A stretch of 64,000 nucleotides of DNA. It comes from Sphaerolaimus hirsutus. Lineage: Eukaryota > Nematoda > Chromadorea > Monhysterida > Sphaerolaimidae. The position numbers were made by a program, and so were the translations under genes. The notes beneath the pieces were generated by a model. That model was given only the letters and a program-made list of their open reading frames with translations. It was not told the DNA's origin and made no database searches. Of this stretch, positions 20,585 through 58,000 are shown piece by piece (the first letter of the stretch is position 1; each line of letters begins with the position of its first letter). The stretch is from positions 25,134,352-25,198,351 of the forward strand of contig OZ038453.1 in NCBI GenBank assembly GCA_964036195.1, given 5' to 3'.

Positions 20585-20855
20585 CATACTATGGACAAAA
20601 TTGCACAGCACATGAAGCCTTGGCCGGTGCCTTTCCCGGTGCCTTTTACTTTGCCCTGGTGCTAGCACCGTTGGCACCGGCAAAAAAATGGCACCGCACC
20701 GCACCGGCACCGGTGCTATTCTGAAAAAAGTGGCACCGGCATGGCACCCCTGAAGATTGCAATGGCACCGCACCAGCACCGGTGCTGGTGCCCTTCGGTG
20801 CCCAGCACCGGGGCACCGGTGCCCCGGTGCCTTTACATCACTACCCGTCACAATA
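20585..20855. repeat. word element, word GGCACC (TAGTGATG family)
   Basis: Dense GGCACC/GGTGCC words in both orientations, ending in CCTTTACATCACTA, which is the inverted end of the TAGTGATG family. It is the opposite-strand relative of the copy at 46347-48429. The left end is degraded. Confidence 0.65.
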
Positions 20856-21412
20856 AATAATTGTAAAAAGTAAAAAATCTAAGAGTGAAAAACAGTGATA
20901 TTGATGAACACAAAAATAAACATAAATTATCTAGGCAGCCGGAAGAGATATCGATCTGACTCAACTTTGATCGATATTGTTTATGCACATGACACGTTTG
21001 TGTGTGTCGTAAAATATTTGCTCATTTTATCGACACGTTACGCGTGCAGTGATGGAAAATTTTGTAAATGTTTTTTACTCTTTTACGTTTTACATCCATT
21101 AAATGCTCGAATTTATGGGGAAACAAATGTAACATGACATATTTATACATTAAAAATACTTACTTTATACTTAATTGTTTCTGTCAAATCCGATGTTTTA
21201 AAATTTAGTGTATTTTTTTGACATTCCGTTGACGCGAGCTAGTGTGTTTGTGAGCAAATCGGTGATTTGTGCTGTGATGTGAAAAACGCCATGGTTATTT
21301 TGGCGCTGTTCACATAACTAAGCGTAAGTTAGACATAAGTTAAGTTATGTCACACGTTTCCTGGGGATTTTTTTCATTGACGACATGGGCGGGCGTGCGT
21401 CATTTTTAAAGT
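20856..21412. other. AT-rich DNA, no gene
   Basis: No open frame with coding character and no repeat that I can delimit. Confidence 0.4.
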
Positions 21413-22295: not shown

Positions 22296-22494
22296 CTCAC
22301 TCTCAGCATTACACTGAGTATCTACGACTACAGCTCAGATATTTATGTTTAGAATATTGTGAATATGTAATGAACGGAGATTTCACGTAAAATATTATAC
22401 CTACAAAATTGGGTATGGAATAACGTTGTTGTTTTATAGAAAACGTTTTTTTTAAGTTCCCAGATATGGCTATGAGTCAACATTTCTATACAGG

Positions 22495-23407: not shown

Positions 23408-24925
23408 ACTTTACATTAACCACTTGAAATTGATTTGTCATGTGACCAATTGGGAAACAGTGGAAATGGGGATGGGTCATGTGACCAATTGGGAAACAGT
23501 GGAAATGGGGATGGGTCATGTGACCAATTGGGAAATGGGGGATGGTCATGTGACCAATAGGGAAATGGAGTCGGTAATGTGACCAATTAGGAAATGGGGG
23601 TGGGTCATGTGACCAATTGGGAAATGGGGGCTGGTCATGTGACCAAAAGGGAAATGGAGTCGGTAATGTGACCAATTGGGAAATGGGGGTGGGTCATGTG
23701 ACCAATTGGGAAATGGGGGCTGGTCATTTGACCAATAGGGAAATGGAGTCGGTAATGTGACCAATTGGGAAATGGGGGTGGGTCATGTGACCAATTGGAA
23801 AATGGGGGTGGGTCATGTGACCAATAGGGAAATGGAGTCGGTAATGTGACCAATTAGGAAATGGGGGTGTGTCATGTGACCAATTGGGAAATGGGGGTGG
23901 GTCATGTGACCTTTTGGGAAATATGATGTGACCAATAGCAAAATGGAGTCGGTAATGTGACCTATTGGGAAATGGGGGTGGGTCATGTGACCAATTGGAA
24001 AATGGGGGTGGGTCATGTGACCAATTGGGAAATGGGGGCTGGTCATGTGACCAAAAGGGAAATGGAGTCGGTAATGTGACCAATTGGGAAATGGGGGTGG
24101 GTCATGTGACCTTTTGGGAAATATGATGTGACCAATAGCAAAATGGAGTCGGTAATGTGACCTATTGGGAAATGGGGGTTGGTCATGTGACCAATTGGGA
24201 AATGGGGGCTGGTCATGTGACCAATAGGGAAATGGAGTTGGTAATGTGATGAATTGGGAAATGGGGGTGGGTCATGTGACCAATTGGGAAATATGATGTG
24301 ACCAATAGCAAAATGGCATTGGTAATGTGACCTATTGGGAAATGGGGGTGGGTCATGTGACCAATTGGGAAATGGTGGTGGGTGATGTGACCAATTGGGA
24401 AAGGGGGGTGGGTGATGTGACCAATTGGGAAATGGGGGTGGGTCATGTGACCAATTTGGAAATGGGATGGGTCATGTGACCAATTGGGAAATGGGATGGG
24501 TCATGTGACCAATTGGGATATGGGGTGGGTCATGTGACCAATTGGGAAATGTTGGTGGGTGATGTGACCAATTGGGAAAGGGGGGTGGGTGATGTGACCA
24601 ATTGGGAAATGGGGGTGGGTCATGTGATCAATTGGGAAATGGGGTAGGTCCTGTGACCTATTGGGAAATGGGGTGGGTCATGTGACCAATTGGGAAATTG
24701 GGGTGGGTCATGTGACCAATTGGGAAATGGGGTAGGTCATGTGACCTATTGGGAAATGGGGTGGGTCATGTGATGTGACCAATTGGGAAATGGGGGTGGG
24801 TCATGTGACCAATTGGGAAATGGGGTAGGTCATGTGATCTATTGGGAAATGGGGTGAGTCGTGTGATTGTGAACAGTTGCGAAATGGGGGTGGGTCATGT
24901 TACCAATTTGGAAATGGGGATGGAT
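23408..24925. repeat. ~30-bp tandem satellite with GTCATGTGAC core
   Basis: Roughly 50 tandem monomers of about 29-30 bp (ggtcatgtgaccaattggga plus an A/G tail). In the left half three monomers form an 89-bp higher-order unit in which every third copy varies (gagtcggtaatgtgacc). Each typical monomer has the near-palindrome GTCATGTGAC. Open frames here are repeat artefacts. There are no unique spacers, so it is not a CRISPR array. Confidence 0.95.
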
Positions 24926-26492
24926 GGGTCATATTTCTGCTTTTCGTACAGAGATCCAATTATTTTACATCCGATGCAGATTAGACAAAAACTGCAGAAA
25001 ATCGAATCCTAATCTACATGAAAACGTGAAAATCAGCATAGCATACATGATCGCTGCCTTATTTTATTTGAATTGCCATTGTTGTCATTTCCAACATTGT
25101 TCGTTATAAGCTATTTCAGTTTAATTAACGGTAAATCAACAGACGGATTGAAATAAAAAGTTATCTCAATTTGCCCTTAGAAAGAGCAGCCCTTTCAAAG
25201 TCTCATAAGAGAAAACATACCATAAATATCGAAAACAGCGCAAATTATTCCACTGGGGCATTTATATTTTCGAAGCCCAACCCTCATTTTACTTGTCCAA
25301 TGACACTTTGCATTTGTCTTCTGGTCACTTGGGTGGTCCAGCCCATACATAGACGCGTATTTAGATAAAGTGCGTATTGTTGCTTACGGTACAGGGTGGG
25401 TCGGGTTTGAAGTGATTTTTTTATTTTTTGTTTTCTATTTAAAAAATGGGAATTGTGATCTGAACTCTGATCTGAGGGAATTGTGATCTAAAACTATTGC
25501 CTATCATTTATTGCCTAAATTTTAGTCATGTTAGATATTTATGAAGTGAACATTTTTATTGAACACCCAGACCTCCTCTGAGGCTACACACACTGGGTGT
25601 CAACTCGTTTCCATGTCAATTCCGATTTAAGTTGACGGGTCGCAGGACAATTTTCAAGTTCGCATGCACCAAAGGAATTACCGGTATGAGCATTTGAAAG
25701 TCGTTCCCCAACCGGTCAACTAAAATCTGAATGGAAACCAGTTGACACTTGATTTCACTGTCAACTAGTATGGGTAGGGCCTTTGGAAAATTGTCTAGTC
25801 AAAGCCAAGTAAGATGCATCACTTTGATGATGTCCATTTGCATAGAAGCATTTGCCATATCCCACTCATAAGTTGCATACTCCCGTCATAAGTTCCGTGT
25901 TTCAGTTCTGATGAGATTAGGTGTAGATGTCATCTAGAATTCACAAAGTAAGAACTGAATAAACATAGAATTTGAGAGTATACATGGCTATATTATGTAG
26001 TAGGTATTCAGTGTGTATAAGAAAAATGGTTGGCGCGCATTTGCTTACATAAATATATCCGGGTAGTAAATAAACAGCGTCCCATGAAGGTTCGGCACCC
26101 TGACAGATTTCAAAATATACAACTGTAACCCACTGAAATAACGATAACCCGAGACAAAATGTATGCTACAAATAGACTGTATAGCCTGATATTTTTTCAT
26201 AGTTTGAAATTAAATCAGGATTTGGGACTGGAATGCCCTAGGTGGGGGTAACCCCACAAATCGCCCAGCTATCTATATATTCCAATAGAAATCATTTGGC
26301 TACTATTCCCTGAACCCCTCCTGACATTTTACAACAATTTTTACACTTTTTACATGACATTTTACATTTACAATAACATTTTATAAAGTCTGTATCTGGA
26401 AGTGTCAACTAAATCAATCATTTTTTGTTGATGGATCCACTATGCAAAATGGCACAGATTATAATCAAGTTTATGGTGGGAGTTTACCATAT
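24926..26492. other. no gene recognised
   Basis: AT-rich DNA. Around 25570-25790 the words GTTGAC/GTCAAC recur in both orientations, suggesting an old word element, but no ends could be fixed. Confidence 0.35.
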
Positions 26493-26655: not shown

Positions 26656-26910
26656 TTGTACCGGGTTTGTATTATATTTGCCAGGTCAAAGTATATCACT
26701 TGAGATCGAACTTGGATTGGACGCTCTGTATATATGTACCTAAGTATCGCCTCTTGTCAATTTGAAGTGTGGAATTCAAGTTTTCCCACAGGAAAACCCG
26801 TATCAATCATGCGTCCAGGTATAGATGGAACTGTCACTCAACCCTTTGCATATACCTGAATACCTTTTTGGAACATTCTTATCTTTTGGAAAGTTCCGTA
26901 TATTCGTGAA

Positions 26911-27275: not shown

Positions 27276-27326
27276 AGTTTTTTAATGAGGGGTGTCGTGA
27301 TAAATTGAACAGGGGTTATTTTGGGG

Positions 27327-27403
27327 TAGTGATGTGAGAAGCGCCAAAAGCGCCAAGGCGCTTTTTCCTTTGGCGCTAGCGCCACGGCGCTTTTAAGTCA
27401 CTA
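27327..27403. mobile_element. 77-bp TAGTGATG-family element, word AGCGCC
   Basis: TAGTGATG at the left, TCACTA at the right, flanked by TTTTGGGG and TTTAGGGG (7 of 8 identical). The interior is almost only GCGCC/GGCGC words in both orientations. It is the smallest complete word element here. Confidence 0.7.
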
Positions 27404-27411
27404 TTTAGGGG

Positions 27412-30230: not shown

Positions 30231-31389
30231 CAACGATGGGTAAGTTCTCCAAAAAAAAACACTTTCTGTGTTTTGAGTTTTTCAAAAATGAATACCTGTG
30301 TTTTGAGTTTTTCTTGAGTAACTCTGTTTTTATTTCTGTGTTTTTTTGTAAAAACTTGAGTTTTTTTAGTTTTTTTTCTAAAAAAACTCGAGTTTTTTCC
30401 AAAAAATTCGAGTTTTCCCCCAAAAAATTTTGATTTACAGCATTTCGATCTGGAAACAGTGGTTTTCTTATAAAATATTGGTTTTGCACATGTTTTAACC
30501 CCACACAACATTTGTGTATTCATTCAAGTGTCAAAAAAGTCCATAAAAATGTCCACAATGAGGACATCAACATCACAACACCAGCAACAAAATGCCCAGA
30601 AACGACAATTTACACAGTACTCCAAAATTCTTCAATGGATGTGCACTGTATGGAAGACTACGGAATTGATTTGAACTACAACTACCATATTACCTCCAAA
30701 TACCCCCATGGGCATTATTATTTCATCAGAAAGTTTTGTAAGGATCATAGAAAATAGTAGGCATTTACGTACCCAAAACAGGTTATAAATGCATACAAAC
30801 AGGATATATTTGAAATCAACATGTAGATAGCTACACAACTTAGTACAGTCTATATGTAGCTGCGATGCGAATTAGCAGTAATAAATACATCATGTACATT
30901 GGATACATGATGTACATCATGCCAGAGGGGGGTATTTCGAGGGGGGCGGGGCTTATTACTTCACCAGTCCATTTTGAGGGGAGTTAATTCAAGGGGGGGG
31001 GGTTAATTCAAGCTAATAAGGTATACTTGAATGTCGAAACTTGAATTGTCAAATCCACCATGAGATGTGCATGCCATCTTGAATTTCTTTTTTGTACCAT
31101 TATAAAATATGAATACATGATGTACATATTTACATACTATAGATGCTTATCTTATCTTGTTTAGTTTAACTGAATGAATGTACATTCAACCGCTTTGTTG
31201 AAAAAACACACAAAAACTCAAAAAACTTTTCTGTGTTTCCGTGTTTCTGTGTTTCTGTGTTCTCCAAAAAAAAACTCATTTGAGTTTTGAGTTTTTCAAA
31301 ATTTATGAGTTTCCGTGTTTCTGTGTAAAACAAAAACACAGAAACTCAATGAGTTTCTGTGTTCAATTTCTGTGTTTTTTCCATCGTTG
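30231..31389. mobile_element. AACGATGG-family hAT-like element, words TTTGAGTTTT and CACAGAAAC
   Basis: Ends CAACGATGG and CCATCGTTG, with the exact 8-bp target duplication GATAAGAT at 30223-30230 and 31390-31397. The subterminal regions are packed with 'tgagtttttc' and 'tttctgtgttt' words on both strands. A TACCG-type MITE (30682-31023) is inserted inside. There is no transposase frame, so it is non-autonomous. Its relative is at 46523-47357. Confidence 0.85.
30682..31023. mobile_element. TACCGTATTT-family MITE nested in the AACGATGG element
   Basis: TACCATATTACCTCCAAATA at the left and AAGCTAATAAGGTA at the right, with G-run words. Both ends are diverged. Confidence 0.5.
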
Positions 31390-32328: not shown

Positions 32329-33296
32329 CAGAGTTGTTAAAGTGTATTTACATTTACTCAAAAAATATATATATACTTGAGTACTTTACATAGTAAATAC
32401 ATTTTACATTTCCACCGGAAAACGACCTGTACTCTACTCGTATGTGTACTGTTTGAAAGTATGTGAGTACTATACTTTCAAAGTATGTGAGTACTATACT
32501 TTTGAAAGTATGTGAGTACTATACTTAGTATGTGGTTAAAATTAAAACGATTAGTTGTTTCTTGTGAGGGGTAGGGAAATCGATGTCCCTCACTTTTACT
32601 TTACTCACTTTTATGCTTCCTGGGTACAGAATTAAAAAATACTTGTTTTGTATTTAAAAAAATTACTTGACGTCTTGTACTCCATAGTTGTTTAAACGTA
32701 TTTACTTTTACTCGATAAATATGTATACTCGAGTACAGAGTAAATATGTTTACGTTTATGTAGTAAATATGTTTACGCAAAAAGTTCTGGTACTCGCTTT
32801 TACATATCCTTTTTGAAAGTACTCAAGTACAGAAAACATATTTCAGATAGTTTTTTTACAGGTTTTTAAAGGCATAGAAAGGAAAAAAAGGTGAAATTTA
32901 GCTAAAAATACATGAAACTAGTCGAAAATGGATATAGAACCAAAAATATAGTCAACAATTGCATAAAATAGGCAAAAAGTTATGAAAATAGCTCATTTTG
33001 AGTGACATTTCTCGAAAATTTTGGCAACATTTCTCAAAAGTACTCACGTTTACGTTTTTTGCGGGGAAAAGTACGTTTACTCACGTTTACTCATGAGTAA
33101 AAGTAAAAAAAATTACTTGACGTTTTCTGTACTCAAGGGGTGAGTAAAAAATAAATACTTTACGTTTACGTATACTTTGAAAAAAGTTCGGTACTTTTAA
33201 CAACTCTGTTATACTCGAGTATGAGTAAAAATAAATACTGTAGGTAAATATGTCTACATTTACTTTCGAAAAAGTGAAGTAATTTTAACAACTCTG
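32329..33296. mobile_element. CAGAGTTG-family hAT-like element, word TTTACTC/GAGTA
   Basis: CAGAGTTG at the left and CAACTCTG at the right, flanked by CTGAATAC and TTGAATAC (7 of 8 match). GAGTACT, TTTACTC and CACGTTTAC words occur throughout. An extra inverted end near 33205 suggests two copies joined head to tail. Confidence 0.75.
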
Positions 33297-34842: not shown

Positions 34843-35157
34843 CAGAGTTGAGAAAGCGTATTTACGCTTACCTGAAATACCCGAATGAATGGGTATTTAT
34901 ACTCACGCTTACGCTTTTGTAAAATACCCTTACGCTTTATTACGCTTTCCCGGTCAAAATACGTGGGTACTAAAAGAGTAAAAACTATTCACACAGTCCA
35001 GTTTTATGCTTTAAAATTGGTTAAAATTTACGCTTACGCTTCCTTTTACGCTTTCCTATGTAGGTATCTTAAAAATGCCTGTCGTTTTAGTATCCATACT
35101 CAAAATTTGGAAAGTGTTTTTACGCTTTCCAAAAATACCGGTATTTTAACAACTCTG
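34843..35157. mobile_element. CAGAGTTG-family hAT-like element, word TTACGCTT
   Basis: CAGAGTTG and CAACTCTG ends, with the exact 8-bp duplication CGATTTAC at 34835-34842 and 35158-35165. TACGCTT words occur about ten times and no TACACTT or TACGTTT. Confidence 0.9.
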
Positions 35158-39226: not shown

Positions 39227-39592
39227 CATAGGCGGCGTAAGTGCTTGTGGGCTTGTGAATGTCACAAGCGAAATTTTTGGTGTCACAAGCAGAAATTTCA
39301 CTGTCACATTGTGACATTCACAAGCGTGTATTGTACAAATGAGAGTGAAAGCTCAAAATTAGCTCAAAATCGCTAAAATCTGCTATATTTTGCCAATTTT
39401 CACCCTTATAATCACTATTTTCATCTATATAAAATACATGGTTTTATGCCTATTTTGAGCCAATTTTAGCCAAGCCAAAATTTTGGCCGACTGCCAGCTT
39501 CACATAAGGGCTCCGATGAAAAGTTGTCACAAGGTGAAATTTTGGCTAATGTGAATGTCACAAGCACAAATTGGGGCTTTGCGCCGCCTATG
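39227..39592. mobile_element. AGGCGGCG-family hAT-like element, word TTGTGACATTCACAAG
   Basis: CATAGGCGGCG at the left and CGCCGCCTATG at the right with the exact 8-bp duplication CTGTAGAT at 39219-39226 and 39593-39600. GTCACAAGC/GCTTGTGA words repeat inside. A relative is at 57529-57715. It sits in a larger tract (about 39128-40080) with GTCACCA and ACTAGTTTTC words. Confidence 0.85.
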
Positions 39593-40267: not shown

Positions 40268-40817
40268 ACGTGAATTCGCACTAAACTTCCTCGGCATACC
40301 TGGCACTGCTGCAAGTACTAAGCACCTATTTAGTCAAACATCACTGCCACAACCAGGCGCTATAGGTTCAGTGCAACATGTTTGCAGTGCAAAATGTTTT
40401 TGAAGTTGTTATTGAGGTTGTAGGTTGAATTTTTCTGTTGTGATATTTGTGTGATATTTTCACTTGTCAATATTGTATGAAATGAATACTGCTTGTGAAA
40501 CAATAATAAATAGATTGTGGGATGTTAGAGTACATTTTTGTGCTTGCAAAAAGTAAATTAAGTGCGCAATAGCCTACAATTTTGCTTGTAATTGAAATAA
40601 ACCGCAAGTGATTTTTTGTGATTTTTTTTGAGCTTAGAGTTATTTTTTCAGTGATTTAATTATATTTTCTGAACGCCTTGAGTGATTTATATATATTTAT
40701 ATTTTTCCAAGTTTGGGGTGATATATTTATATATATTTTCCAAACAATTGGTGATTTTTTTGAATGCTAGTCACAATTCAGTGACCTTTCCTGTGGTATA
40801 CAAAGTGTCACCCCGCC

Positions 40818-41252: not shown

Positions 41253-43846
41253 ATATGAAAGGTGTGCTTCTAAAAGTACCGATCTACAAAAAATCGATTT
41301 TGAGATAATCCATTTTTGAAAGTTTGGAGTATGCAAATACCCATACATGGGTATTGGGTATGGGAATTTTGGGTATGGGTATTTTGGCCATATTGTTGGG
41401 TATCCACATGCATGGGTATGATCATTGTTTATACACATAACACTAGCTATATAACATTTAGTGAATTGTATTTTTTGTAGTACAGTACATTTTAAAGGAA
41501 CAACTTGGTAATATCATGTAGATCAGTACCTTTTAAAGCACAAAATCAGATAGATGTAGATCGGTACTTTTACCCAGGCTGTCTGTGAAAATGTAACATT
41601 TTCTATACCATGCATAACCCGCAAATGCAACATTATTAAAAAAAAGTTGTAACATGTAACCCGTTTCTAATGATCCCCAATGTGAGAGCATAATTGGGTA
41701 ACACGATGCAGTGTGTGTTATATAAGACAGGCACACACGCAGCAGAAGTTTCGGGGGAGTGCTCTCGAGTTGCTCATTACAGTCTCATATAGTAGAGTTC
41801 CATACAGTGTCATCTCATCTCGGGAACGTGTGGACTTAGTGGCAGATTGCATTTTTTCATCTCATATTATTCCTTGTACGTCCGGCTATGGTCAATGCAG
41901 TCAACGCACCGCGCGCAGCGATAATCTATTGATTTGCACATAAACGTAGGCCAGCTGATTGACACTTTTGCGAAAATTTGGAAATGGTAATTGACAGTCC
42001 GGAAAGGATTATTGATGTACGCAGCGAAAACATTGTAAATAATTACGGACTTCTTTGTAATTATTTATAGTATTCTTGACAGTTGACAAATTTAAAACAC
42101 GTTGCACAGTGGTATGCAATTTATGTTGCACACACTCATGAAGTGACCACGTGTTTGCACAATGCATTCAACACAAGCAATTTTTCTAGTGCGCGTCAAG
42201 CAAAAAAGTGTTCGCTCGCACCTTGTTATACCACTAACGATGGCAAACAGTCGAAAAAAAAAGTATTTAAATTTTTAAGTGTTTTTTCTGAAATGAATTT
42301 TCGAATTTTCGAATTTTTCCTAAAAATAATTTTCGAATTTCAAATTTAATTTTCGAATTTCGAATTTTCGAATCTTTTTTGGCAATTTTCGAATTTTTTT
42401 GGCTAGTTTTCGAATTTTTTCAAATAATTTTCGAATCTTTTTGGAAAAATATTGAATCTTAAGCTTTAAACACAGAATTTGGACTGTCTTCATGTTCTGC
42501 TCAGTTGTTATGACCTTATTTTAACCATAAATTAGCATAAAAAATGGTGGAATGAGTTATGCAAACCAGTGTGCTGCTTCTTCATTTAATTAACACATTG
42601 ATACATTTAATTCACCAACAGAGCGAAGGCAATAAAAACAACAATTTAAAAATTGGCGTCAAATAAAATATCAGCATAAAATACAAAATTGGCTTTAAAT
42701 ACCGTATTATTTTTTCAGAGTGGAAACTTGGGGGGGGTAAACGAGGGTGGGTATTTCGAGGGGGGTGTATTATTTTGCCAGAAATTTTTCAAAATCCCAG
42801 TACTAAATTGTTGTTTGTAGGTAACACAGATGTCAAAAAATGCAACAAAAACTGCCTTTTATAATGCTCTATATACTTATATAAGTACGTAGATGGTACA
42901 AACCCTGTTCTACACAACACAGTCATTGTTTTTAACGTGTGTTCTGTGTTTCCCAGATCACAAACTGCATTACGTTCTCTATACACCAAATTGGGGGGGG
43001 GGGGTGGTATTTCGAGGGGGGTTTATGAATTAATAGTGTAAATTTTGAGGTGTGTATTTCGAGGGGGGGGGGATATTTCGAGTAAATACAGTATAAAAAA
43101 CGGATGTGTCGAAGTCCGCCTCTTCCGCCATGGAGACATTTCAACGTTTTTTTGTTACGTTTCACTTTTCCATCCGCGCCGCGTATCAATTGTTGATTTA
43201 TTAAGCACGTTGAACTTAACAGTGTGTTTGATTGCCTTGAATTCCTTAAAAAATTTGAAAACTATTTTTGAATTTTTGAATTTTGAATTTTCGAATTTTT
43301 TGAAAAATAAATCGATTTTTAAGTGTTTTTTCTAGGGGCGAAATAAAAATTCGAAAATTCCGAAAAAATTCGAAAATTCGAAAATGTTTTCGAATTTTCG
43401 AATCTTTTTTTGCCATCGTTATATACCACGCTTGTATACCGCGGGGTATACTCTCACAAACAGCCTGCTTTTACCCATAGTAAAAAAGCACAAATTGAGT
43501 TTTTGCTGCTAATGATGCTGAGCTGACTTCGGTACTTTTAGAAGCACAAAAAATCTTGTGCAGATTGGTACATTAAGAAGTACAATTTTGAAAAATGTGT
43601 GTAGATCGGTACTTTTAAAAATACAAAAGCTGAAAAAGCTTGTAGATTGGTACTTTTAAAATTTCAAAAGTGTATTTTGCAATTTTTTGCTTTTTCGACC
43701 CCCCAAATCTCAAAATTGAATTTCGCACCCCCCCACATATTATATATTTTTTTGAAGCGCATTTTTATGGGGACCCCAAAAATGGTCCGCACTCAAATTT
43801 GAAAAATTTGTAGATCGGTACTTTTAGAAGCACACCCTTCATATGT
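41253..43846. repeat. 2.6-kb inverted-repeat element, word GTACCGATCTAC
   Basis: GGTGTGCTTCTAAAAGTACC near the left end is inverted near the right end (GGTACTTTTAGAAGCACACC). GATCGGTACTTTTA words occur at both sides. The centre holds unrelated DNA and the nested element 42235-43421. Its boundaries are tentative. Confidence 0.5.
42235..43421. mobile_element. AACGATGG-family hAT-like element, word TCGAATTTT
   Basis: TAACGATGGCAA and TTGCCATCGTTA ends with the exact 8-bp duplication TATACCAC at 42227-42234 and 43422-43429. Words are TCGAATTTT/AAAATTCGA. A CGAAATACCCC-type MITE (about 42702-43094) is nested inside. Confidence 0.85.
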
Positions 43847-44090: not shown

Positions 44091-44513
44091 TACCGTATTT
44101 CCTCGAAATACCCTCCCCCCTCGAAATCCCCCCTCGTGTGACCCCCCCCCCCCCTCTCGAGACCACTATGAAACAATCACCCCCCCTCGAAATACCCCCC
44201 CAGATTGAGTGTAAAGAGAACGTACATGACAAATACTGCAGTTTGTGAGAACACACGTTAAAACAATGTCGGAATCTCGTTAGAACAGAGTGTTTATACC
44301 ATCTACGTACTAATATTAGTCTACAGGAGTCTATACATGTCAGTTATTGATGCATTTTTCTACCCCAGCGCACATCACAAACAACGATTTTGTACTAGGA
44401 TTTCAAAAAAGTTCTTGCGAAATAATAACCCCCCCCCCTCGAAATACCCCCACCCCTCTCGGGAGCACTATGAAACAATCACCCCCCGGGGGGTATTTCG
44501 AGGAAATACGGTA
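44091..44513. mobile_element. TACCGTATTT-family MITE, word CGAAATACCCC, with target duplication
   Basis: Intact ends flanked by TTCATAAC (44083-44090) and TTCATAAA (44514-44521), 7 of 8 matching. This supports hAT-type transposition of the family. Confidence 0.8.
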
Positions 44514-45246: not shown

Positions 45247-46346
45247 CCCGAGCAAATAACGTTCCCTCACGAAATACCTCCACCCGAATGAAGTGTAAGG
45301 AGTTTATTTTTCCAGGGGGGGGGTATTCGAGGGGGGTTATCTTTTCCTCAAGCTCACAAGAGGGGGGACCCACAAAATTCCAACCTATCCAAAAAAACCG
45401 TTTTCGCATTTTTGGATCTTTGTTTGTTATCCGGTAACAACTACTGGGTAACTTGCAAAACTGAAACATAATTATTCAATATCATTTTCTCGGCATTCTA
45501 AGAGACAACCTGTTTATAAATATTTATCTTCATCTTAAACCGCTATTTTTGAAGATAACTAATGTTTTTCGCCGTTCTTTTTGCCATAACGTGGTCTGGA
45601 TTAAGGCACCGCGCATATTTGTGCAAATGTTTTTACATGCATGGGGAAAAACGACAAATTTTATAGTGCCATTAATATTTTGTTAGCACATGTGCAAATT
45701 AATGTGTAGAGCGCAGAGTTGTTAAAAGTATCAAACTTATATCAAAGTGTACGTAAATGTAAAGTATTCATTTTTTACTCACCACCTGAGTACCGAAAAC
45801 GTAAAGTATTTATATATTTTTTTATACTTTTTTATACTCATGAGTAAACGTGAGGAAACGCACTTTTCACCGCCGAAAAACTGGAAGTTTCTGGAAAATC
45901 AAGTATTTTACTCACGTTTTACGCAGTGTAACAGTGTTTTTTCTGCGATTAAGTCCTGTGGCGTATTTCTATTCGCATGCGTAATTTGAGTTATTATAGT
46001 ATGCACTTAACTATACACCGGTCCTAGGCCCTGAACACTCCCCAATAAATGCTGGATATTTATTTGAATATAAATTTATTCCCACGCACTAGTAATCTCG
46101 AATCTGAAATGAACTTGCGTACTTTTTCAGCGACCAGCCAATTAACTAATTTCTCACCAAATGCTACCCGCACGCGCCGAAAAACTTTCTATATTTTTAT
46201 TTTTATTTTTTCAAATTTTGAGCTCAATTAATTGCGCAAATTTGATTTCGGAGAAAACTTTGACTATAACCACGCTTGAAAGGCACATTGTCAGGCAGTT
46301 GAACATTACACCGTTTAACAAAATTCGTGGTTAGTTCAGTGGTGAT
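45247..46346. other. no gene; partial CAGAGTTG-family element
   Basis: A CAGAGTTGTTAAAAGT end at 45714 starts a tract of GTAAAGTA and TTTACTCA words to about 45925, without a clear right end. The rest is unassigned. Confidence 0.4.
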
Positions 46347-46522
46347 TAGTGATGGAAAAGGCACCGGGAAATATGGCACCGGCACTGGCACCGCACCGCA
46401 CCGGCACCGGTCCTATTCTGTAAAAAATGGCACCGGCACCGGCAGGGCATCCTCGAAAAAGGGCACCGCATTGCACCAGCACCGGTGCTGGTGCCCTTCA
46501 GTGCCCAGCACCGGGGCACCGG

Positions 46523-47357
46523 CAACGATGGAAAAAAACACAGAAATTGAACACAGAAACTCATTGAGTTTCTGTGTTTTTGTTTTACACAGAAACACGG
46601 AAACTCACAAATTTTGAAAAACTCAAAACTCAAATGAGTTTTTTTTTGGAGAACACAGAAACACAGAAACACGGAAACACAGAAAAGTTTTTTGAGTTTT
46701 TGAGTTTTTTTCAGCGAAGTGGTTGAACACATTTTCAGAATGCACATGAATTCAGTTAAACTAAACAAGATAAGATATGCATGTAAAGCATGTAAATATG
46801 TACATAATGCATTCATACTTTATGATGGAACAAAAAATCAATTAAAGATGGCATGCACATCTCCTGGTGGACATGTTTAAATATAGTTGTAGTTCAAATC
46901 AATTCTGTAGTCTTCCATACAGTGCACATCCATTGAAGAATTTTGGAGTAGTGCGTAAATTATTGTTTGTGAGCATTTTGTTGATGCTGGTGTTGTGATG
47001 TGGGTGGATGTCCTCATTGAGGACATTTTTATGGACTTTTCCAACACTTGAATGAATACACAGATGTTATGTGGGGTTAAAACATGTGCAAAACCAATAT
47101 TTTATAAGAAAACCACTGTTTCCACATCAAAATGCTGTAAATCAGAATTTTTTGGGGGAAAACTCAAGTTTTTTTGACAAAAACTCGAGTTTTTTCAAAA
47201 AAACTAAAAAAAACTCGAGTTTTAACAAAAAAAACACAGAAATAAAAACAGAGTTACTCAATTTTTTTTCGAAAAAAACCCTCAAAACACATGTATTCAT
47301 TTTTGAAAAACTCAAAACACAGAAAGTGTTTTTTTTTGGAGAACTTACCCATCGTTG
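46523..47357. mobile_element. AACGATGG-family hAT-like element, words CACAGAAAC and AAAACTCAAA
   Basis: CAACGATGG and CCATCGTTG ends, exact duplication GGCACCGG at 46515-46522 and 47358-47365. It is a diverged relative of 30231-31389 in the opposite orientation. Confidence 0.85.
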
Positions 47358-47384
47358 GGCACCGGTGCCCCGGTGCCTTTCCAT

Positions 47385-48416
47385 CAGAGTTGCGAAAGTG
47401 TATTTACGCTTACCCGAAATACCTACGTAAATGGGTATTTATACTTATGCTTACGCTTATGCTTTCATAAAATACCCATACGCTTTTTTACGCTTTCCCG
47501 GCCAAAATACCCGGGTACTAAAAGCGTAAAAAATCTTTTCACACAGTTTAGTTTTACGCTTTTGAAAAGCGTAAAAACACAAAAAAGAGAGTGAACGAGT
47601 CTGCGTTCAAAAAAATTACTGCGTGTGTGCAGTAATGCACTGGAAATAGTGGCACATGTACAAATTGTGTCGCAATATGAAAGTTTTGTTAAGATGTACT
47701 GTGTCATCGAGCAAAATTGTGGCTTCAGGTGAGAAAAATTTGTTCACAGCAAAAAATGGTTGTGTGATGCGCGGTGAAGTGTCCTGAAGTGTCTTCACGC
47801 AGACACACAATGTCGGATGACACTTCACTACATCCCAGATGGTTCACGGCACTTCACAAACCATGCAAAGTATGCTGCAAAAGTTTGTGAAGTGCACTTC
47901 ATGAATTTCGGTCTTTGTGAAGCTAGGTGAAGTGAGTGGAAGACACTTCACCGAAAACTTCGTGAAATGTGTGGAAGTGAGTGGAAGTGCCTTCACAGAG
48001 CGCACTTCCACACACTTCATGAACCCATTTTTTTTGCTGTGGTTGCTGAAAATGGATCCCGACGACGATTTTATCGCCCTTGACAGCACTAACTCCACAT
48101 TAGAAGATGAGGATGACATAAATGTTGCTGCCGATGAATAACCAAACAAAATATGAGGACAGAATATGCTAAATGACATCTGAAAAATGTCACCGAGACC
48201 TTGATTTGGAAAGAATTCATAGAGCAAAAAGCCTCTAAAAGATTTTTACGCTTACGCTTTTATTTATGTATGCTTTTATTTATGTATTTATTTAGGTATG
48301 CTTTTCTAGGTATTTTAAAAATACCTTACGCTTTCAGTATCCATACTCAAAATTTGGAAAGTGTATTTACGCTTACGCTTACGCTTTCCAAAAATACCGG
48401 TATGTTAACAGTTCTG
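47385..48416. mobile_element. CAGAGTTG-family hAT-like element, word TTACGCTT
   Basis: CAGAGTTG and CAGTTCTG ends with the exact duplication CTTTCCAT at 47377-47384 and 48417-48424. Flank words are TACGCTT. The centre (about 47760-48020) has a separate GAAGTG/CACTTC word block, probably a nested insertion. Confidence 0.85.
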
Positions 48417-48429
48417 CTTTCCATCACTA

Positions 48430-49083
48430 GTGACAGGCCCGCACACACTAGTTGACATCGCAAATTCGTGTCAACTGAATGTCAACTAAAGAAATTAAAA
48501 GCATCAAACGTAACAGAGACAATGGAAATTTAGTGTCAGTATGCTCTATCACATAGGAAAGTTGAAATCACATAATAAATTAACCAAAATTTAGTTGAAT
48601 TTAGTTGACACGAATTTTCATGTAAACTGTGTGAGGGCCCATTGTCAGTGCACACACTAGTTTTCTATAAAAATGCATTGAAGATATGGGATTAGATGAA
48701 TGAAATCTGTGAATGTGAATACAATTTTACAGTTTGATTGTTAGAAATTTTAGTGCTTGTAAAATGGATTCCAATGGCAATGCCATGGGCTATGGACACC
48801 ACAAAGTCTGGGTTACATGATGAATAAACTTCTGATTTGTGTAATGCTACTGCTGGAAGTATGCATGGAATGTTTGCATAAAATGGTGCCAATTGCGAAA
48901 ACTTTGAAAGTCGCCCCTTGAAAAAAAAGTCGCCCCTTGAATAACCCCCTGAATAGTTCCCCCTCAAAAGTCGAACGGAAAAATTTCCCGGTAGAATTAT
49001 TCGAGCAAATGCTGTAGAAAATTTTTCTCTTGTACAATGCCAGGGCGGTTTAGATTTCACTAATTTATTTTCATTTTTTACAG
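48430..49083. other. repeat relics upstream of the receptor's first visible exon
   Basis: 48433-48640 has GTTGACA and 'cacacactagtt' words. 48905-49017 is a diverged GAATAATCCCC-type MITE ending 51 bp before the intron-exon border consensus. No upstream receptor exon was found. Confidence 0.4.
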
Positions 49084-52000
49084 TGACAACGCCCTCAAGT
49101 GAAACGTCAATCTCAAACCCGCACGGTGAAAATGAAAATGAAAATTCCGAGCTTTATTCCATGGCGGCGCTCGAAGTCAAGAAGCAATATTACCGATTTT
49201 TGGTGCCTATTTTGATGATTATGTGCCTAATTTCGGCAGCCGCTAATGGCACCATACTTTTGTCGGCAAAGTGAGTTTTTGGTGGAATTTTGTGATGAGA
49301 GAACAGTTAAATATGTAGATGCTGGAAGGATTATCAGCGCATGGGTTTGATGAGTGATTTTTAACGATTTTCGATGTTCATATTCAATGCTTTTAAAGAA
49401 AAAATCTCGATATTCAGTCCCAAATGCGCATACAGTAAATACATTCCCCGGGGATAACATTTTGCGGGAGTTACCTTCCACAAAAAGCGTGGAGTTATCG
49501 ACTTCTTGCTGGATACCGCGTGGAGTTATCGACTTGCTGGATACCGCGTGGAGTTATCGACTCATTGGTACCCTACTTTTCGACTTCTCGCTGAATACAG
49601 CGTTTATTGGTTGACTAATGGTTCTTCTTTTCAACTGAATCCAGCTTAGACTTATCGACTTCTCACTGACCTTATCGACATCTCCTCACCTTGATCCGCC
49701 CCGCGCAGGTTTCTGTCGCGCTCGCCCACCCCTCCATTGGTGTTCACGCTGTCGCTGTGCGCGGCGGACGCGTGGCTGTGCGTTTCCATGGCTTTCGGAT
49801 TGTTCACGCAGAGTTTGCTGCCTCAGGTTGGTTGGGGGATGTGATAGGGGGGCTATTTCACAGCCTCTAAAATGAAATGTAAAATGTAGTGTCAAATGCC
49901 ATGTAAAATGTCCTGTAGAATGTAAAATGTCATGTAAAATGCCTTGGAAAAAGTATCACGGCATGCAGAGGGTAGGAAGTCATGTAAAAACCCGTGGAAA
50001 ATGTCTGATGCCATGCAAACTGAAAAAAAGTTATGCAAAATGCCCTGAAAAATGTCCAATTATTTAAAATTGTACTTCCGAGATATTCCATCACATTTTA
50101 CATGACTTTAGAGAGTTTGCATGACATTGGACACTATACAAAGCCTGAGAAGCCCCTGGAAGCCCCCATGATGTATGGATAAATGGAATAAAACATTTGT
50201 AAGGTCGAACAAAGGGACCTTTCAAAACAGTTTCTCCCCCTAAATCCGCCCTAAACCCCCCACCCCAACCCCCCCCCAGCTCTGGCGCTGGGCGGGCGCG
50301 TGGGAGACGTGCTGGGGGCTGGGGCTGGAGTCGGTGCGGCTGGGCGCCATGGTCACCAGCGTGCTGCACCTGCTCGCGCTCGCTCACAACCACCACATGG
50401 CCATCAGACATCCGCTCCAGTATACGCAGCATGTTGGTGGGGTAGATGTCTGGCGGGTTTGCTTGCGCACTGGGTTAGGGGTGAGATTTTGAGAATTTGG
50501 TGAACGAGTAATCAGTATTTGAATGTATTTGAGTTTACTGGAATGAGTTGTTTTAATTCTTGGTCAACTTATATTGACATACCTGTTACCTCATTCTTGT
50601 AAACCGAAAATGTGTTCAAAGCAGATTTATTAGCTTTTACCAAATTTTGGCACTGAGTACCAAACTTTGAGTTTACTGGCAGTAAATTAGTGTGTGCACC
50701 AATCATCATGGGTTGGTATACTGACGCTGATATCAAAACCATATACACCTCAAATTTTCATACATTTATGCACTTTCAGGCTTCCGTGTGCCGCGCTGCA
50801 ATGTTATGCATTTGTCTGTGGCTTTTTCCGCCACTCACTCTGACGATATTCTTCTTTTCAGTGCCTAAACAAGCATTTAGGTCGGCCTATTGCCAGAACA
50901 TTTACTTCTACAAGACCGCTGTGTTAGTGGTGATTTTGTTCTATTGAGTTTTATTTTTGAAAAAAATGCAAAAAAATCATTTTTTCTCGCAGGTTTCGAA
51001 CACCAGTGGGCGCGGCGGTGATGATTCCACTATTGCTTATGTTGGGAATGTACGTGCACGCTGGCATTCTTTTGTTGCACAGAAAATCGAACAGAGATAG
51101 TGGCGCGGCTGAGTCCGAGTTGAGCAAGGTTGGGTTTGAAAAAAAAGATTTTGTTGTAGCGCTGTGCAGAGAACACCGCTGGACAACTGCAGCACATATA
51201 CACCAGTAGACACATTGTTGACAAACAGACATGTGCACATGTCTGTGCTGTAAGAGCAGTACCAGTTGATCCACTGGCTAAACATGCACCGCGGATGTCC
51301 AGGGGTGTTTGCTGCTGGCTGCGTGCATAGGTGTCCAGATGTCCAGGGGTGTTGAATGCCACATAAATAAAGCTGTGGTAAATTGTGGTAAATGCCAATA
51401 TACATAAATGTATTCATGTTTTCATGAGGTTAATAAAACAACTTACAATAGCACCCATATTTTCTACAACTTCAAACATATAGACATTAATAAGACCCAC
51501 TAAACATCCCCCCAAAAATGCAGGTAACTCGGCGAAACTTGAAAGCTACCCAAACCACTGCACTTTACGTGCTAGTTTTCATCGTTGGCTGGTTGCCACC
51601 AGTTTTATTATTCACTTTGCTGTGCGCCGATTGTCCACTGGATTTGCTGCAGGCGCTAGAACGAAATCCCGTAGCTACTATTTGTTGGTTTTCAAAAAAT
51701 GTATTTCTTTTGTTGTTGTTTTTTGGGTGGGGGTGATTGATGGCACCTTTGGTAGATTGCGGACGCCTAACCAGGGGGTAATCCCAAGCCCTCTAACGTG
51801 TCAAGTAAAGTGTCAAATGTCATGTAATGTGTCAATAAAAACGAAAAATGAGAAGATTTTAGCACTGAAATTTGCATGACAATAGACACTTTAATCTACA
51901 TTTGTCATAATTGACACTTTGCAGGACTATTTGACACTTTACATTACATTTTAGGGGGTCTGGGATCGGCACCAGGGGACTATTTTTATTGGCTTTTTTG

Positions 52001-55000
52001 TGGCTCCACGCACTAGTTTAAAATGGAAATGAAATTTATAGAATTAGAAATGAAACCTAAAATGCCATTTTCTCGAAATCGATTTTATTGATTTCTATGT
52101 AGAATTTGAGTCTTCAGACCTGTCAAATTTTTCTGGAATTTACGGTAGGCTACGAAGAGTTTTTAAATTTCCAAATTTCTCCGCAGTGATGTCGGCCGGC
52201 GTGAACGTATTAATCATAGCAAAATCAATGGTCGACGCATATATTTATGCAGCCAGAAATCGAGAAATTCGAATAGCTTTACTTCGAATGCGAGCGAAAC
52301 TTTGCTGCGGCACGTGCGGCGCAAGTGCCGCGCGCAAATTGGAGGTTATTTTTTACTTTTTATCCCCCTGCTTGAATAAGTCCCCAGGGTTTTTTCGCAG
52401 CAGGATACTTATGCACTCACTTTTGCAAGAAAAAAGAAAATAGTTGCAAAAAGAAAAAGGCGGAGTCGCGCACAAGTGACTAATGTTTATTTCTTGGAAA
52501 GGTTTTTTTCGTTTGAACAATTTTGATTTTACTACGAATGACGTCGTGATGGAGTGTTTGGAAAAATGCATTGCATGTGGTCAGCGGAGAATATCCATTA
52601 TTGTTCACTATTTTTTCCCATGATGTCAGAAAACTTTCTCAAAAAACGAACATTTTCAGTTTGAACGGAGGCGCATGTACGGTGGAAATCCGCCCACATT
52701 AACACCGACGATATTACATAGTAATGCGGAAGGCCCTCTGAGGTAAGACATTGTCGCTGCACTGCATGCACTATTTAGTTCACTAAAGAGATTTGAAGAT
52801 TGGGTAAACTCATAATTTAGCCTTGAACGCATTTGAGTTCACTGGAATGAGTTATTTTTCCTCGCGATCAACTGTAGTTGATGAACAACTTTTTAATTTA
52901 CACTAAACTTAAATGCCAGTCAAAGTTGCTTTATGAGTGAACGAAAATTTTAGAATGCTGGCAGTAAACTATTAGTGCGTGCAGCATAATTATGAACATT
53001 TTTGTGATGTCCATTTAAATATTTATCATCTTTTGTCATATCCAGAGGTAGTTATGGAAGGAACGCACAAAGCATGGCATCAAATCTGAAACTTAGAAAG
53101 ACTACCATTACAGGTGCGTTTTATATGCTCTGGGTTATACAAAAATAGTTATCACACCAACCTATGCCTACTAGTCATGTAAACCCAACTAGTCATGTAT
53201 GCCCGCCAGTCATGTAAACCCGCTAGTAATGAAAACCCGCTAGTCATATAGGCCCGCCAGTCATGTAAACCCGCTAGTCATGTAAACCCGCTAGTTATGT
53301 AGGCCCGCTAGTCTGTATTTAGCAGAGTTGCGAAAGTGTATTTACACTTACCCGAAATACCCGGGTAAATGGGTATTTATATTTACACTTACACTTACAC
53401 TTTCATAAAATACCAATACACTTTTTTTACACTTTCCAGGGCAAAATACCCGGGTACAGAAAGTGTATTTTTATCTTTCAGATGGCCCTGTTTTATGCTT
53501 TTGAGAAAATAGGGTCATGTACAAAAAATGCATTAAATGTAGAAAATATGGCAAATGTACAAACATGCATTTGATCTACAACATTTGATCAGTACCAGGG
53601 TTGGCAAAATCTCAGAAAGAAATAAAAATAAAATAAAAATAAAATGGAAAATTTGAGAATAAAATAAAATAAAATAAAATGGAAAATTTCAAAATAAAAA
53701 TAAAAATTGTATAAAAATTCAAATTTTTGTAAAATTTTTGTAAAATTGTATAGAAATTCATATTTTTGTAAAAATTGTATAAAAATTCATACTTTTTGTA
53801 AAATTTTTTCTTTTCTTGCTTATGGTTCAACATGTTTATCCATGGAGCTGGATCAGTCCCAAGCCCTGTAAAGTGCCAAATGTCATATGAAATGTCATGC
53901 AAAGCATCAATTGTCATAACAAATGTTAAGTAAAGTGTCAATTGTCATGACAAATAACAAGTAAAGTGGCAACTGTCAAGCAAATTGTATTCAAATCTTG
54001 TTTTCTATCCAAATCTTGGTGTTGGTTTTGTATGCAAATCTTATGTCAACATTTGGATACAAAAAATAAGATATGGATACAAAAACATAAGATTTAGATA
54101 TAAAAACACAAGATTCGGATACATAATTGACACTGCATGACATTTTTCATGACAATTGACACTTTGTTTGACATTTGAGATGTCAATAGACTCTACTTTA
54201 CATTCATCATGACAATTGACACTTTGCAGGACATTTTACAAATATCCCCGCACACTCCAGTACTCCGTCTACTGAAAATGCGAACCATTATTATCAATAA
54301 TTGTTACTTTACACTTGCTACCTATTGCATGCAACTACCTACTGCATGTAAGTTCTGCAAAGTAATGGAAAGATTTGTCACCAGTTTTTCATGTTTAGGT
54401 CTAATTATAAAGTTTTTCTGGCCTTGCATGCAAGATTCTGATTTTTTGTAAAATTTCTGTACATTTTTATAAAATTTTTGTAAAATGGTTCCATTTTATT
54501 ATTTTATTATGATTTTGGAATAAAATAAAATAAAATAAAATGAAACAAGAATAAAATACAAATAAAATACATTTTTATACAATTTTTATACAATTTGAAT
54601 ACAAATGATTTTTATAAAACCAACCCTGATCAGTACTCATGGTATTCTACAGTTTCATCATACTTTTGTAAAAAGGACAAGATCAATGGAAGTTCACTAA
54701 CTGGACACAAAGTCAACTTTTGCATTGGCATTTGCTGCATGTCCATTCTTGCATTTAAACAGTGTGTATCGCATTGCTTTATCAGTAAAATATCAACACA
54801 GAAAAACTGCCATTATTAGGGAACTTCATACCACTACAGTATTTCTTACAGTCTGAAATGTGAAATAAAAGACTGTAAAATGTGAAAAAAATGCATGAAA
54901 ATGATAAATAAATTGATCTAAAGGTGAGAACAGCGGTGTTTTCTAATGCTCAACAGTGAGAGCTCTGTTTAAAAATTTTTTTTACACTTACACTTTTTTT

Positions 55001-58000
55001 TACACTTTCCTAGGTATTTTTAAAATACCTTACACTTTTGGTATCCATACTCAAAATTTGGAACTTGTATTTACATTTACACTTACACTTTCCAAAATTA
55101 CCGGAATTTTAATAACTCTGGTATTTAGTCTGTATTACCGTATTTCCTCGAAATACCCCCTCGAAATACCCCCCCTCGTTTGACCCCCCCCCCCCCCTCT
55201 CGAGACCACTATGAAACAATCACCCCCCCCCCCTCGAAATACCCCCCCAAATTGAGTGTAAAGGGAACGTACATGACAATAACTGTAGTTTGTGTTCTGT
55301 GTACTGCAGAACACACGTTAAAACAATGTCGGTGTCACGTTAGAACAGTGTACATACCACCTACATACCAGTCTACAGAACCTTAAAAATGGCGGTTTTT
55401 GTTGCATTTTCCGACGTCTGCGTACGTTTCAGACGACAATTTCGTACTTGGTTTTCAAAAATGGTCTTGTGAAATAATAACCCCCCCCTCGAAATACCCC
55501 CCCCCTCGTTTAACCCCCCCCCCCTCTCGGGACCACTATGAAACAATCACCCCCCGGGGGGTATTTCGAGGAAATACGGTAGTCTGTATTTAAATGGGGA
55601 TTAGCGCAGCACACGGGTTAGTGGCAGCTTTACTTGCGGCAGCGGGTTTACGCGGGTTTACAAGTATTTTCTTCGCCATTTTCGCACTCGCATTTTCTAA
55701 CATTAAAATAACAATTTCTAACATTTTCGACCATTAAAATCAGCCTCCCAATTTACAGGCATAGAGACAAGAAAACCGTCTTCCCGTTGCTCAACCTACA
55801 CAAAGAACTATCTCCAAGTGAACCAAAATGAAACTAGACGCGCGCACAGTATGGCAACCACACCGATAAATACAAATTCCAGTTTGAAAAGTCAACTAGA
55901 TGACAATTGTGCATTTCTGGATGGAGGAAATGAACCTTTTAATGTGAAAGATTTGTCGTGCAGATCACCTTCCAGACAGTCTTCGAGGTTGGATTTTTGA
56001 TTAATTGTTTTCATGACTACCAGATTTGCTTGAATGATTTCCCTGGGAAATTATCATTTGGTCAGACATTTTTTGAGGGGGGGGGGCTATTCAAGGGGGG
56101 GATTATTCAAAGTGGGGAATTTCTATTTTGTCAAAAGTTTCAATCATGCTTATGCTTATATCATTTCATTTCACGAAATATGCTGAATTAATAAAATAAC
56201 GTGCCATTTCTGTTTTCACTTGGCACAACAAATTGATCGTATGCTTAGAGGGGAATTATCGAGCGGTATTTATTAAAATATCATTCACTTTAAATACTCC
56301 ACACTCGTAAACTCCCCCCCCCCCCCAGCACAAAAATACATTTTAAATGTATGAATTGTATTTAATGTGTACCAGAGTTGGAAAAACGTATTTACGTTTA
56401 CCCAAAATACCCGGTTATTTGGGTATTTATATTTACGTTTACGTTTACATTTTCCAAAAATACCATTACGTTTTGTTACGTTTTCCTGGCACAATTACCC
56501 GGGTACCAGAGAAAACGTAAAAATCGTATGGAAAATGCACAAAAACGGTGCATTTTTGAACTTTTTTCTCATGCAATAAGTACTATTTATATTTTTGGCC
56601 AATTAGCTGGTTAATTGTTTGATAAATAACATAGGTAAGCAAAGATGTGATTGTATTAGCAGAGAAATGCTTGAAATAGGAAAAACAAAGGTGTTTTTCA
56701 ATGCATCTGATCACGGGTTGTGCACTTCAATTAAATTTTTACGTTTACGTTTTTTTTACGTTTACCCGTGTATTTTAAAAGTATTTTACGTTTACGTTTT
56801 TTTTACGTTTACCCATGTATTTTAAAAGTATTTTACGTTTTCAGTATTAATACTCACAATTTAGAAAAGGTATTTACGTTTACGTTTACGTTTTCCGAAA
56901 ATACCAGTATTTGTACAACTCTGATGTGTACCCAAATACATGCCACGCGTGGGTTCACAGGTGGAAAAGTGTTAGAACTACTGAAAATTGTCCATAAAAT
57001 GAGATTTGGTTGAAAACTCAGACGTAAAAATCACGCCCTCCCTCTGAGAAACCGAGTAACCAGCAGGCGAACTAATCGAAGAAATACGGTAAATCCCGTT
57101 TCGTCCATTCCCTTTTCGACTTTAGATCGCGGCGGCTATCCGCGGCGGCGATCGAATCGATCGCTTGCGATTGTGACGCGGCTGTACAGAACCGTGACCA
57201 ATCGACACCGCAATTCTCCACGCGTCTCAGGCCTGCCAGGTTTTTTGGGGGGTGATAATTGAAGCTAGGTTTGATCAAAGTGCTAACGGTGTCATGGCGC
57301 TTGTCAGATGACTTTGGAGGAAAATTGCATCAAGTATACTTCGCGGACAGAACAGTTTACATCTGTAAAACGTACTTATGTATTCATTACGCGCCGACGC
57401 ACCAACCAATGCCATACTTCTTTCTGCACGCACTTTCACAAAAAAGAAAAATGCTGAGTCGGGTACGGCCCTGTGCCATTACGCATGTAAACCCAACACG
57501 CATGTAGATTTGATACGCATACATACATCACAGGCGGCGCAAGGTCCCAATTTGTGCTTGTGACATTCACAATCACATTGGCCAAAATTTGACAATGTGG
57601 CACTTTTTACTAGGTAATAATAGATGATCCTGCTTTTTTGTTGGTATTTCTGCTTGTGACACCAGAAATTCCGCTTGTGACATTCACAAGCGCACAAGCA
57701 CTTACGCCACCTATGACATACATACATGACTATACATGGCATGCTGAAAATAAGCCATAAAACACATGACCTGGTGATTTAAAGGTGAAAATCTATAAAA
57801 AGTATGAAAATTAGTGACTTTGGGGGAAAATTCCTCAAAAGTGCTCCAGAAGTTGCTAGATTGCTTGGCAATTTGCAGGGGTGGGGCTGTTCAGGGGAAA
57901 GTAGCCAAATGATAGATAGATAGCTGGGCGATTTGGGGTGGGGATACACGCCCCCTTTTCTTACTCCTGTGGGTATAATGTGTCTATAATGGGCGACATG

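Follow-up and report, generated by a model that had tools for sequence, protein, structure and literature searches.

Families of putative hAT elements with shared ends and concertedly different subterminal words in the nematode Sphaerolaimus hirsutus

Subterminal repeats are described as a defining feature of hAT transposons, and Tgf2 carries 17 and 18 of them at its two ends, according to the accessible part of that report (PMC4890040). In the available excerpts on related elements, the Ac transposase binds AAACGG subterminal repeats (PMC3260210), the BED domain of Hermes binds AAGT, with an isolated AAGC being bound weakly (PMC10368747), and the CG/AATTCAT motif of Herves, present at both ends, is sufficient for transposase binding, its one-base variants being weaker. 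The Herves excerpt also states that binding words differ between hAT families (PMC3143072). Here we compare with these systems the repeat elements of a 64,000-bp stretch of the Sphaerolaimus hirsutus genome (the window; G000:C4:25134352-25198351 in a 348-Mb assembly of 762 contigs), in which families with the same ends are built around different repeated words, and in which the word differs in place, slot by slot, between sister lineages. We assign a probability of about 0.7 to the reading that transposases bind these words and that selection for an altered recognition has substituted them where they stand.

The data comprise the window, 20 random 10-kb stretches (L031-L050), 30 loci for which the left end of a single element served as the query, and pattern counts over the whole genome. 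The family with the terminal repeat CAGAGTTG uses three main words, TTACGCTT, TTACACTT and TTACGTTT (the GC, AC and GT classes), as well as an older TACTCA-type word. The TAGGGTTC family uses GGGACC, GGGATC and GATATC, and its classes have a TAGGGTTCAAAC...TTTTC frame in common. In TAGTGATG the words are AAGCGCC, ATGGCGCC and CACCGG, and in AACGATGG the word is ACACAGAA in three copies and TTCGAAA in one, with two copies containing 2 words of the other kind. The few foreign words in TAGTGATG and AACGATGG leave the classes clear, and no class alignment was achieved in these two families beyond the terminal repeat. An earlier note, made from the window's sequence, had described same ends with different words, and this holds in all four families, including TAGGGTTC, which was absent from its list.

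The earlier note had also stated that almost every word of a copy carries the same change, and the numbers agree. For CAGAGTTG, the mutual information between copy and word was 1.547 bit, compared with a maximum of 0.546 bit in 10,000 shuffles (152 TTACNNTT words in 15 of 40 listed copies, which were chosen to be divergent, most near-identical TTACACTT copies being excluded). In TAGGGTTC, one strict word per copy was found in 8/8 copies (135 words). Two further parts of that description, words on both strands and interiors consisting almost wholly of words, stand in reduced form: the words lie mostly on one strand in CAGAGTTG and TAGGGTTC, although reversed slots exist, and interiors made nearly entirely of words were seen by eye in some TAGGGTTC and TAGTGATG elements and not in CAGAGTTG, whose full words lie nearly all less than 200 bp from the ends. 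Across 53 elements, the count of the most frequent 7-mer had a median of 11, against 3.4 in their own shuffles and 4 in background, and 47/53 elements reached at least twice the shuffled count.

The replacement can be followed slot by slot in CAGAGTTG. Twelve copies, chosen by word content, were used for the class alignments (GT4 was excluded from the class consensus), and 15 of the 16 word slots hold the class word in all three classes. With slots defined from the GC class alone, the exact GT word stands in 15/15 and the exact AC word in 14/15, the one inexact AC slot differing through a gap that the alignment places within a stretch of T. The other positions of the word were conserved in the source lineages, with 0/74 changed in AC and 0/75 in GT, compared with 25/211 and 48/216 spacer columns, respectively (Fisher test of words versus spacers, 5e-4 for AC and 3e-7 for GT). 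Replacement in concert, as the earlier note had proposed, is strongly supported in CAGAGTTG and TAGGGTTC.

Words could also become uniform if gene conversion, template switching or unequal exchange between word copies homogenised them within an element, which would make selection on binding unnecessary. Tandem word runs are present in several families, unit number varies in TAGGGTTC, and in CAGAGTTG 8/15 slots lie inside such runs while two further slots form a close inverted pair. Yet the 7/15 slots outside tandem runs (this pair among them) have all switched, and so have the two of the 15 that are reversed, which carry the complementary change. The sequences flanking a slot match those of the same slot in another class (identity 0.78, 45 comparisons) and not those of other slots in the same class (0.45, 237 comparisons), so that the flanks are orthologous and have not been homogenised. 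Homogenisation is disfavoured for CAGAGTTG, and as a general account we consider it quite improbable.

Individual copies fall short of the consensus, with 9 to 15 exact words per 12 to 15 scorable slots. Each of the 26 AC copies contains between 9 and 12 TTACACTT words and never more than a single TTACNNTT word of another kind, and the copy L031:5358-6686, which combines 12 GT with 2 GC words, may be partly switched or may owe its mixture to decay. Genome-wide, the two-word end AAA[RY]GTATTTAC[RY]TTACCCG occurs at 3,760 places, whereas backward-pattern controls gave 0. No fewer than 3,525 of these ends are pure (1,113 GC/GC, 998 AC/AC and 1,414 GT/GT); 12 GC/GT and 6 GT/GC ends make 18 mixed ones against 2,527 pure GC or GT ends, and 217 are other combinations. 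Among the first 97 places, 93 are pure (30 GC, 22 AC, 41 GT), where 34 would be expected under independence. In this sample the two words of an end agree beyond chance; a correlation of word changes within copies is what the earlier note had proposed to test. Copies of one class share descent, and the counts therefore show discrete classes with rare mixtures, not thousands of independent switches. Ends of the types TAGGGTTCAAACGGGA and TAGGGTTCAAACGATAT number 11,202 and 3,241 in the genome. In TAGGGTTC, convergent end pairs less than 1.6 kb apart, in the part of C1 that lies within both listings, carry the same word in 40/40 cases (33 GGGA and 7 GATAT, where GGGA does not separate GGGACC from GGGATC).

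These counts bear on a mutational origin, in which words would arise by microsatellite slippage and change by mutation bias such as CpG decay. The step from TTACGCTT to TTACACTT is indeed a CpG transition, and each of the 4 mixed ends among the first 97 differs from a pure class by a single CpG transition. Such decay, however, predicts TTATGCTT besides TTACACTT, word by word, whereas the AC copies carry hardly any other TTACNNTT word; TTACGTTT differs at a non-CpG base; the excess of pure ends over independence is large; and mixed ends remain a minority (217 + 18 of 3,760). We regard a mutational origin as very improbable.

After insertion, words and spacers decay evenly. At the AC right end, which was used since it lies outside the search query, singleton differences amounted to 16/1358 in words, 20/1817 in spacers and 2/364 in homopolymer spacers (26 copies, a set that excludes L035:7630-8373 with its 7 TTACACTT words). 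Inserted copies are consequently not kept uniform, and the uniformity thus belongs to the source lineages; singletons being as frequent in words as in spacers also speaks against homogenisation. A pooled count over both ends and shared differences (words 18/2762, spacers 125/5008) was discarded, as the left end is the query and subfamily differences are included. The AC class looks the youngest of those seen, because its mean divergence outside the query region is 5.5% (23 of the 26 copies, those shorter than 800 bp), compared with about 14% at the ends of the GC (4 copies) and GT (3 copies) classes. A GT element was found within a GC element (L031). AC copies are also near-uniform in length, 24/25 of the paired copies listed in L003-L030 measuring 729-845 bp, and all 25 have exact duplications. 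The class has the properties of miniature inverted-repeat transposable elements, being of high copy number and, as judged from length alone, without coding capacity and hence non-autonomous.

One family with several words would be only apparent if unrelated hAT families had converged on, or exchanged, their terminal repeats. By eye, the AACGATGG and TAGTGATG classes do share little past the terminal repeat. The CAGAGTTG classes, in contrast, align along both ends including the spacers, their AC and GC interiors share stretches at about 70-85% identity, and the TAGGGTTC classes have both TAGGGTTCAAAC and the TTTTC spacer in common. Convergence or exchange of ends appears unlikely to us overall, but may apply to AACGATGG and TAGTGATG.

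We scanned the window and the 20 random stretches for [CT]A..G-type inverted ends of 10 bp, adjoined by direct repeats of length k; a single mismatch was tolerated in the ends and another in the direct repeats (some matches share an end). This returned 44 matches at k=8, against 3 at k=7, 2 at k=9 and 0 at k=10, while five dinucleotide shuffles gave 0, 0, 0, 2 and 0 matches at k=8. Terminal repeats of hAT elements are short and have A as their second and G as their fifth base. Without a prefilter, this pattern was present in 10/14 perfect 10-bp terminal repeats at k=8, compared with 2/33 at k=6, 0/2 at k=7 and 0/1 at k=9. A second peak of the same scan lies at a duplication length of 6 (27 matches; 33 perfect 10-bp ends; L031-L050 and the window) and possibly represents another transposon class. 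Exact 8-bp duplications flank 4/4 pairs of AACGATGG, 6/12 of TAGTGATG, 6/12 of TAGGGTTC and 5/15 of CAGAGTTG ends, numbers of pairs that include chance pairings, and 0 exact duplications were seen for these pairs at k=6, 7 and 9. The target bias nTnnnnAn, with T2 and A7 both present, holds for 14/32 exact CAGAGTTG duplications and 10/36 of the other families (24/68 in total; background 8.9%). Because of the 8-bp duplications, the target bias and the hAT transposase C-termini near two word-bearing ends, the elements are supported as hAT-superfamily DNA transposons, most of those seen being apparently non-autonomous. Two claims of the earlier note, hAT identity and 8-bp duplications reaching beyond the window, have therefore held up; its count of at least four families has partly, with duplications found for CAGAGTTG, AACGATGG and TAGTGATG and mostly not for TACCGTATTT. 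In the latter, only 2/28 strict pairs have an 8-bp duplication that deviates by no more than one base, and 26/28 lack it, so that its membership in the set is unsupported; looser pairing, in which many pairs arise by chance, gave 2/159 at 7 or more of 8 positions. With 11 terminal-repeat seeds, TACCGTATTT not among them, the elements and their nested insertions cover 23,496 bases of the 200,000 bp of random sequence when the duplication must be exact, and 27,368 when one mismatch is allowed, or ~12-14%.

The genome holds 28 matches to the hAT dimerisation family. Three of these (L051, L052 and L053) were read, on their 3' side only. In L051 (C7), a minus-strand frame ends in a hAT dimerisation domain (Pfam 5.8e-8) with a stop near base 1740, and is followed by TTCGAA words (bases 1416-1285) and then by the end TAACGATGGC at 1221-1230, which matches the window element at 42235-43421. 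By eye, the related frame in L053 (C15) is followed by the same words and the same end; this member of the L051 set, checked for a different word, carries TTCGAAAA as well. A different frame with a hAT dimerisation domain (Pfam 1.7e-7) in L052 (C4) stops near 1622, and beyond it lie CGGAAA words (1352-1162) and the end TAGGGTGTCAA at 1137-1147, matching L033:8903-9431. The two word-bearing ends are within about 0.5 kb of the hAT C-termini. Since the words and the matching terminal repeat follow hAT frames, the word classes TTCGAAAA and AAACGGAAA most probably form the outer portion of elements which encode hAT transposases or did so in the past. The GC-class CAGAGTTG interior keeps what we judge to be a coding relic; of 592 candidate places for this interior, 40 were scored and none lies near the 28 hAT matches. 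A tblastn search of 358 kb with generic hAT and BED motifs gave only two weak matches (E 0.11 and 0.14).

The words might instead be sites for a host factor, such as an activator, a silencer or a target of host defence, in which case their concerted change would track that factor. The genome has 8 zf-BED matches, and all of them are more than 5 kb away from each of the 28 hAT dimerisation matches, which leaves room for such a factor as the reader, although divergent fingers or introns could hide a domain. On the other hand, the words adjoin the terminal repeat of two transposase-coding elements, and those of CAGAGTTG are concentrated in the terminal region where, in the portions of the literature available, hAT transposases bind. 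We think a host factor improbable as the cause. Seven of the 8 zf-BED matches cluster in G000:C1:7466186-7680097 (0.2 Mb), away from the hAT matches, and are perhaps a host gene family.

That the same letter changed in nearly every word of sister lineages suggests that a transposase changed the word it reads, and we infer, by analogy with the hAT elements described above, that the words may be bound by a transposase, that a change in this transposase would drive the word switch, and that selection would act through mobilisation. The word seems to be kept constant by selection in active sources, and the preferred word seems to have changed by single bases. In the sequence of events that we propose, element ends would carry many copies of the word (about 15 in CAGAGTTG), which the N-terminal DNA-binding domain of the transposase would read cooperatively. 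If recognition shifted in one transposase lineage, elements with matching words would be copied more, and words would be replaced one after another, in place and by the same base, until the full set had switched. The terminal repeat and the spacers would stay recognisable, either because another part of the protein reads them or because their drift is slow. The pure classes, the near absence of mixtures and the possibly part-switched copy L031:5358-6686 lead us to a further, tentative step, to which we give somewhat less than even odds: a radiation of hAT lineages, each founded by switching its whole array, in place and base by base, to a new word, such that a lineage's own and parasitic copies would be orthogonal to the parent transposase.

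Several observations weigh against selection for changed recognition. The sixteenth CAGAGTTG slot is unswitched, its reversed right-end word being AAGTGTA in both GC and AC, with no word in GT. As pure copies of a class share descent, independent switches may be few; we count two or more each in CAGAGTTG and TAGGGTTC. Shared (non-singleton) AC differences are rarer in words (2/1358) than in spacers (11/1817). When TAGGGTTC words are read more loosely (last letter C or T), 3/165 GGGAC or GGGAT words contradict the class of their copy, and the tandem word number varies between copies of this family, so that exchange between units plays a part there. CAGAGTTG, TAGGGTTC and TAGTGATG are without a linked transposase, and the zf-BED result above points the same way. 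Finally, in the accessible part of the Hermes report an AAGC can participate beside AAGT (PMC10368747), and one letter thus need not abolish binding.

The window itself contains CAGAGTTG elements of all three main classes, each on the + strand. Those of the GC class (word TTACGCTT) lie at 34843..35157 (duplication CGATTTAC) and 47385..48416 (CTTTCCAT), that of the AC class (TTACACTT) at 53323..55120 (GTATTTAG), and that of the GT class (TTACGTTT) at 56373..56923 (ATGTGTAC). The remaining elements have their strand entered as '.'. Within the AC element, a CAGGGTTGG element is nested at 53596..54628 (word AAATAAAAT, duplication ATCAGTAC). An older CAGAGTTG element at 32329..33296, with TACTCA-type and mixed words and the duplication CTGAATAC/TTGAATAC (1 mismatch), contains a nested copy of the same family at 32683..33208 (TTGTACTC/TTATACTC, 1 mismatch). 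Two CAACGATGG elements are located at 30231..31389 (word ACACAGAAA/AAACTC, duplication GATAAGAT) and 46523..47357 (word ACACAGAAA, duplication GGCACCGG); by eye, the second of these and the GC-class element at 47385..48416 sit in one stretch of GCACCGG words with TAGTGATG-type ends (46345-48430). The CATAGGCGGC element at 39227..39592 (word around GTGACATTCACAAGC, duplication CTGTAGAT) has similar pieces at 57524-57571 and 57646-57722 (inverted repeats I24 and I14). At 42235..43421 there is a TAACGATGG element with the word TTCGAAAA and the duplication TATACCAC, in which a nested GGTATTTCGAGG-type element is seen by eye. TACCGTATTT elements with the word CTCGAAATACCCC occupy 44091..44513 (TTCATAAC/TTCATAAA, 1 mismatch) and 55136..55581 (GTCTGTAT).

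Visual inspection showed more stretches of GCACCGG and GCGCC words, their TAGTGATG-type ends being degraded, at 20585-20845, 27325-27410 and 38480-38620, and two TTTATATATATTTATATTTTT-rich stretches at 38620-38960 and 40600-40790 that are perhaps another word class. The element-rich region is bordered by the arms of an inverted repeat (19398-20326 and 58535-59463), 92-100% complementary in pieces, and a gag frame follows at 60336-63998 (Retrotrans_gag 4.1e-6); with this frame beside them, the arms may be ends of long terminal repeat retroelements in opposite orientation. Inside the region, exons like those of a seven-helix receptor gene were noted by eye at about 49000-52400, and a minisatellite of at least about 44 units, each ~30 bp long (GTCATGTGACCAATTGGGAAATGGGGGTGG), extends over about 23430-24930. 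The interval 1390-18353 holds several long frames, most of which lie on the minus strand, and a Pfam scan of six of them (276-488 amino acids) gave no match over the cut-off.

How the recognition sequence of a protein that needs many sites can change is an open problem, as any single-site change should lower binding. Here one genome holds alternative complete sets of sites one base apart, on the scale of the two-word ends counted above, together with rare mixtures, so that one can measure in what order sites change, what mixtures cost and how the protein changes along with them. The elements also explain about an eighth of random sequence, which could be mistaken for unrelated repeats or simple sequence.

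Among the literature matches listed, as far as their available text goes, we found no description of concerted word replacement across hAT elements, in a search whose scope lay outside Repbase reports and most subscription journals. The maize Ac/Ds system is similar in its 8-bp duplications, short terminal repeats and single word repeated in the terminal 200 bp, and the TAGGGTGTCA class uses AAACGGAAA, which contains the Ac hexamer; in the accessible part of that source, however, Ds classes vary in length, filler and AAACGG number, and there is no mention of a word substituted throughout (PMC3260210). Tol2 and Tgf2 share the CAGAG start, the 8-bp duplications and subterminal repeats at both ends, as far as the excerpt shows (PMC4890040). 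The CAGAGTTG bodies bear a weak resemblance to the printed Tgf2 end: for two of four older copies the score was matched by 2 to 17/500 body shuffles, and for the other two older and three young-class copies by 36 to 242/500. In the available Hermes text, the letter that distinguishes AAGT from AAGC is the one separating the AC word AAGTGTAA from the GC word AAGCGTAA, and Hermes likewise has a quasi-palindromic word pair near the tip, here AAGTGTA-TT-TACACTT, and the nTnnnnAn target bias (PMC10368747). Hermes differs in being one element with one motif and in its BED domain, with no zf-BED match here within 5 kb of the hAT frames. The variants of Herves are, in the part of the report at hand, minority sites in one element and not alternative complete sets. 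Coral CMITE elements, in the accessible part of their description, are likewise miniature elements grouped into sets with a common and a variable part, but conservation in them is higher in the interior than in the terminal repeats, and piggyBac-like helpers are proposed (PMC2872659), whereas the elements described here have conserved ends and differ in the word.

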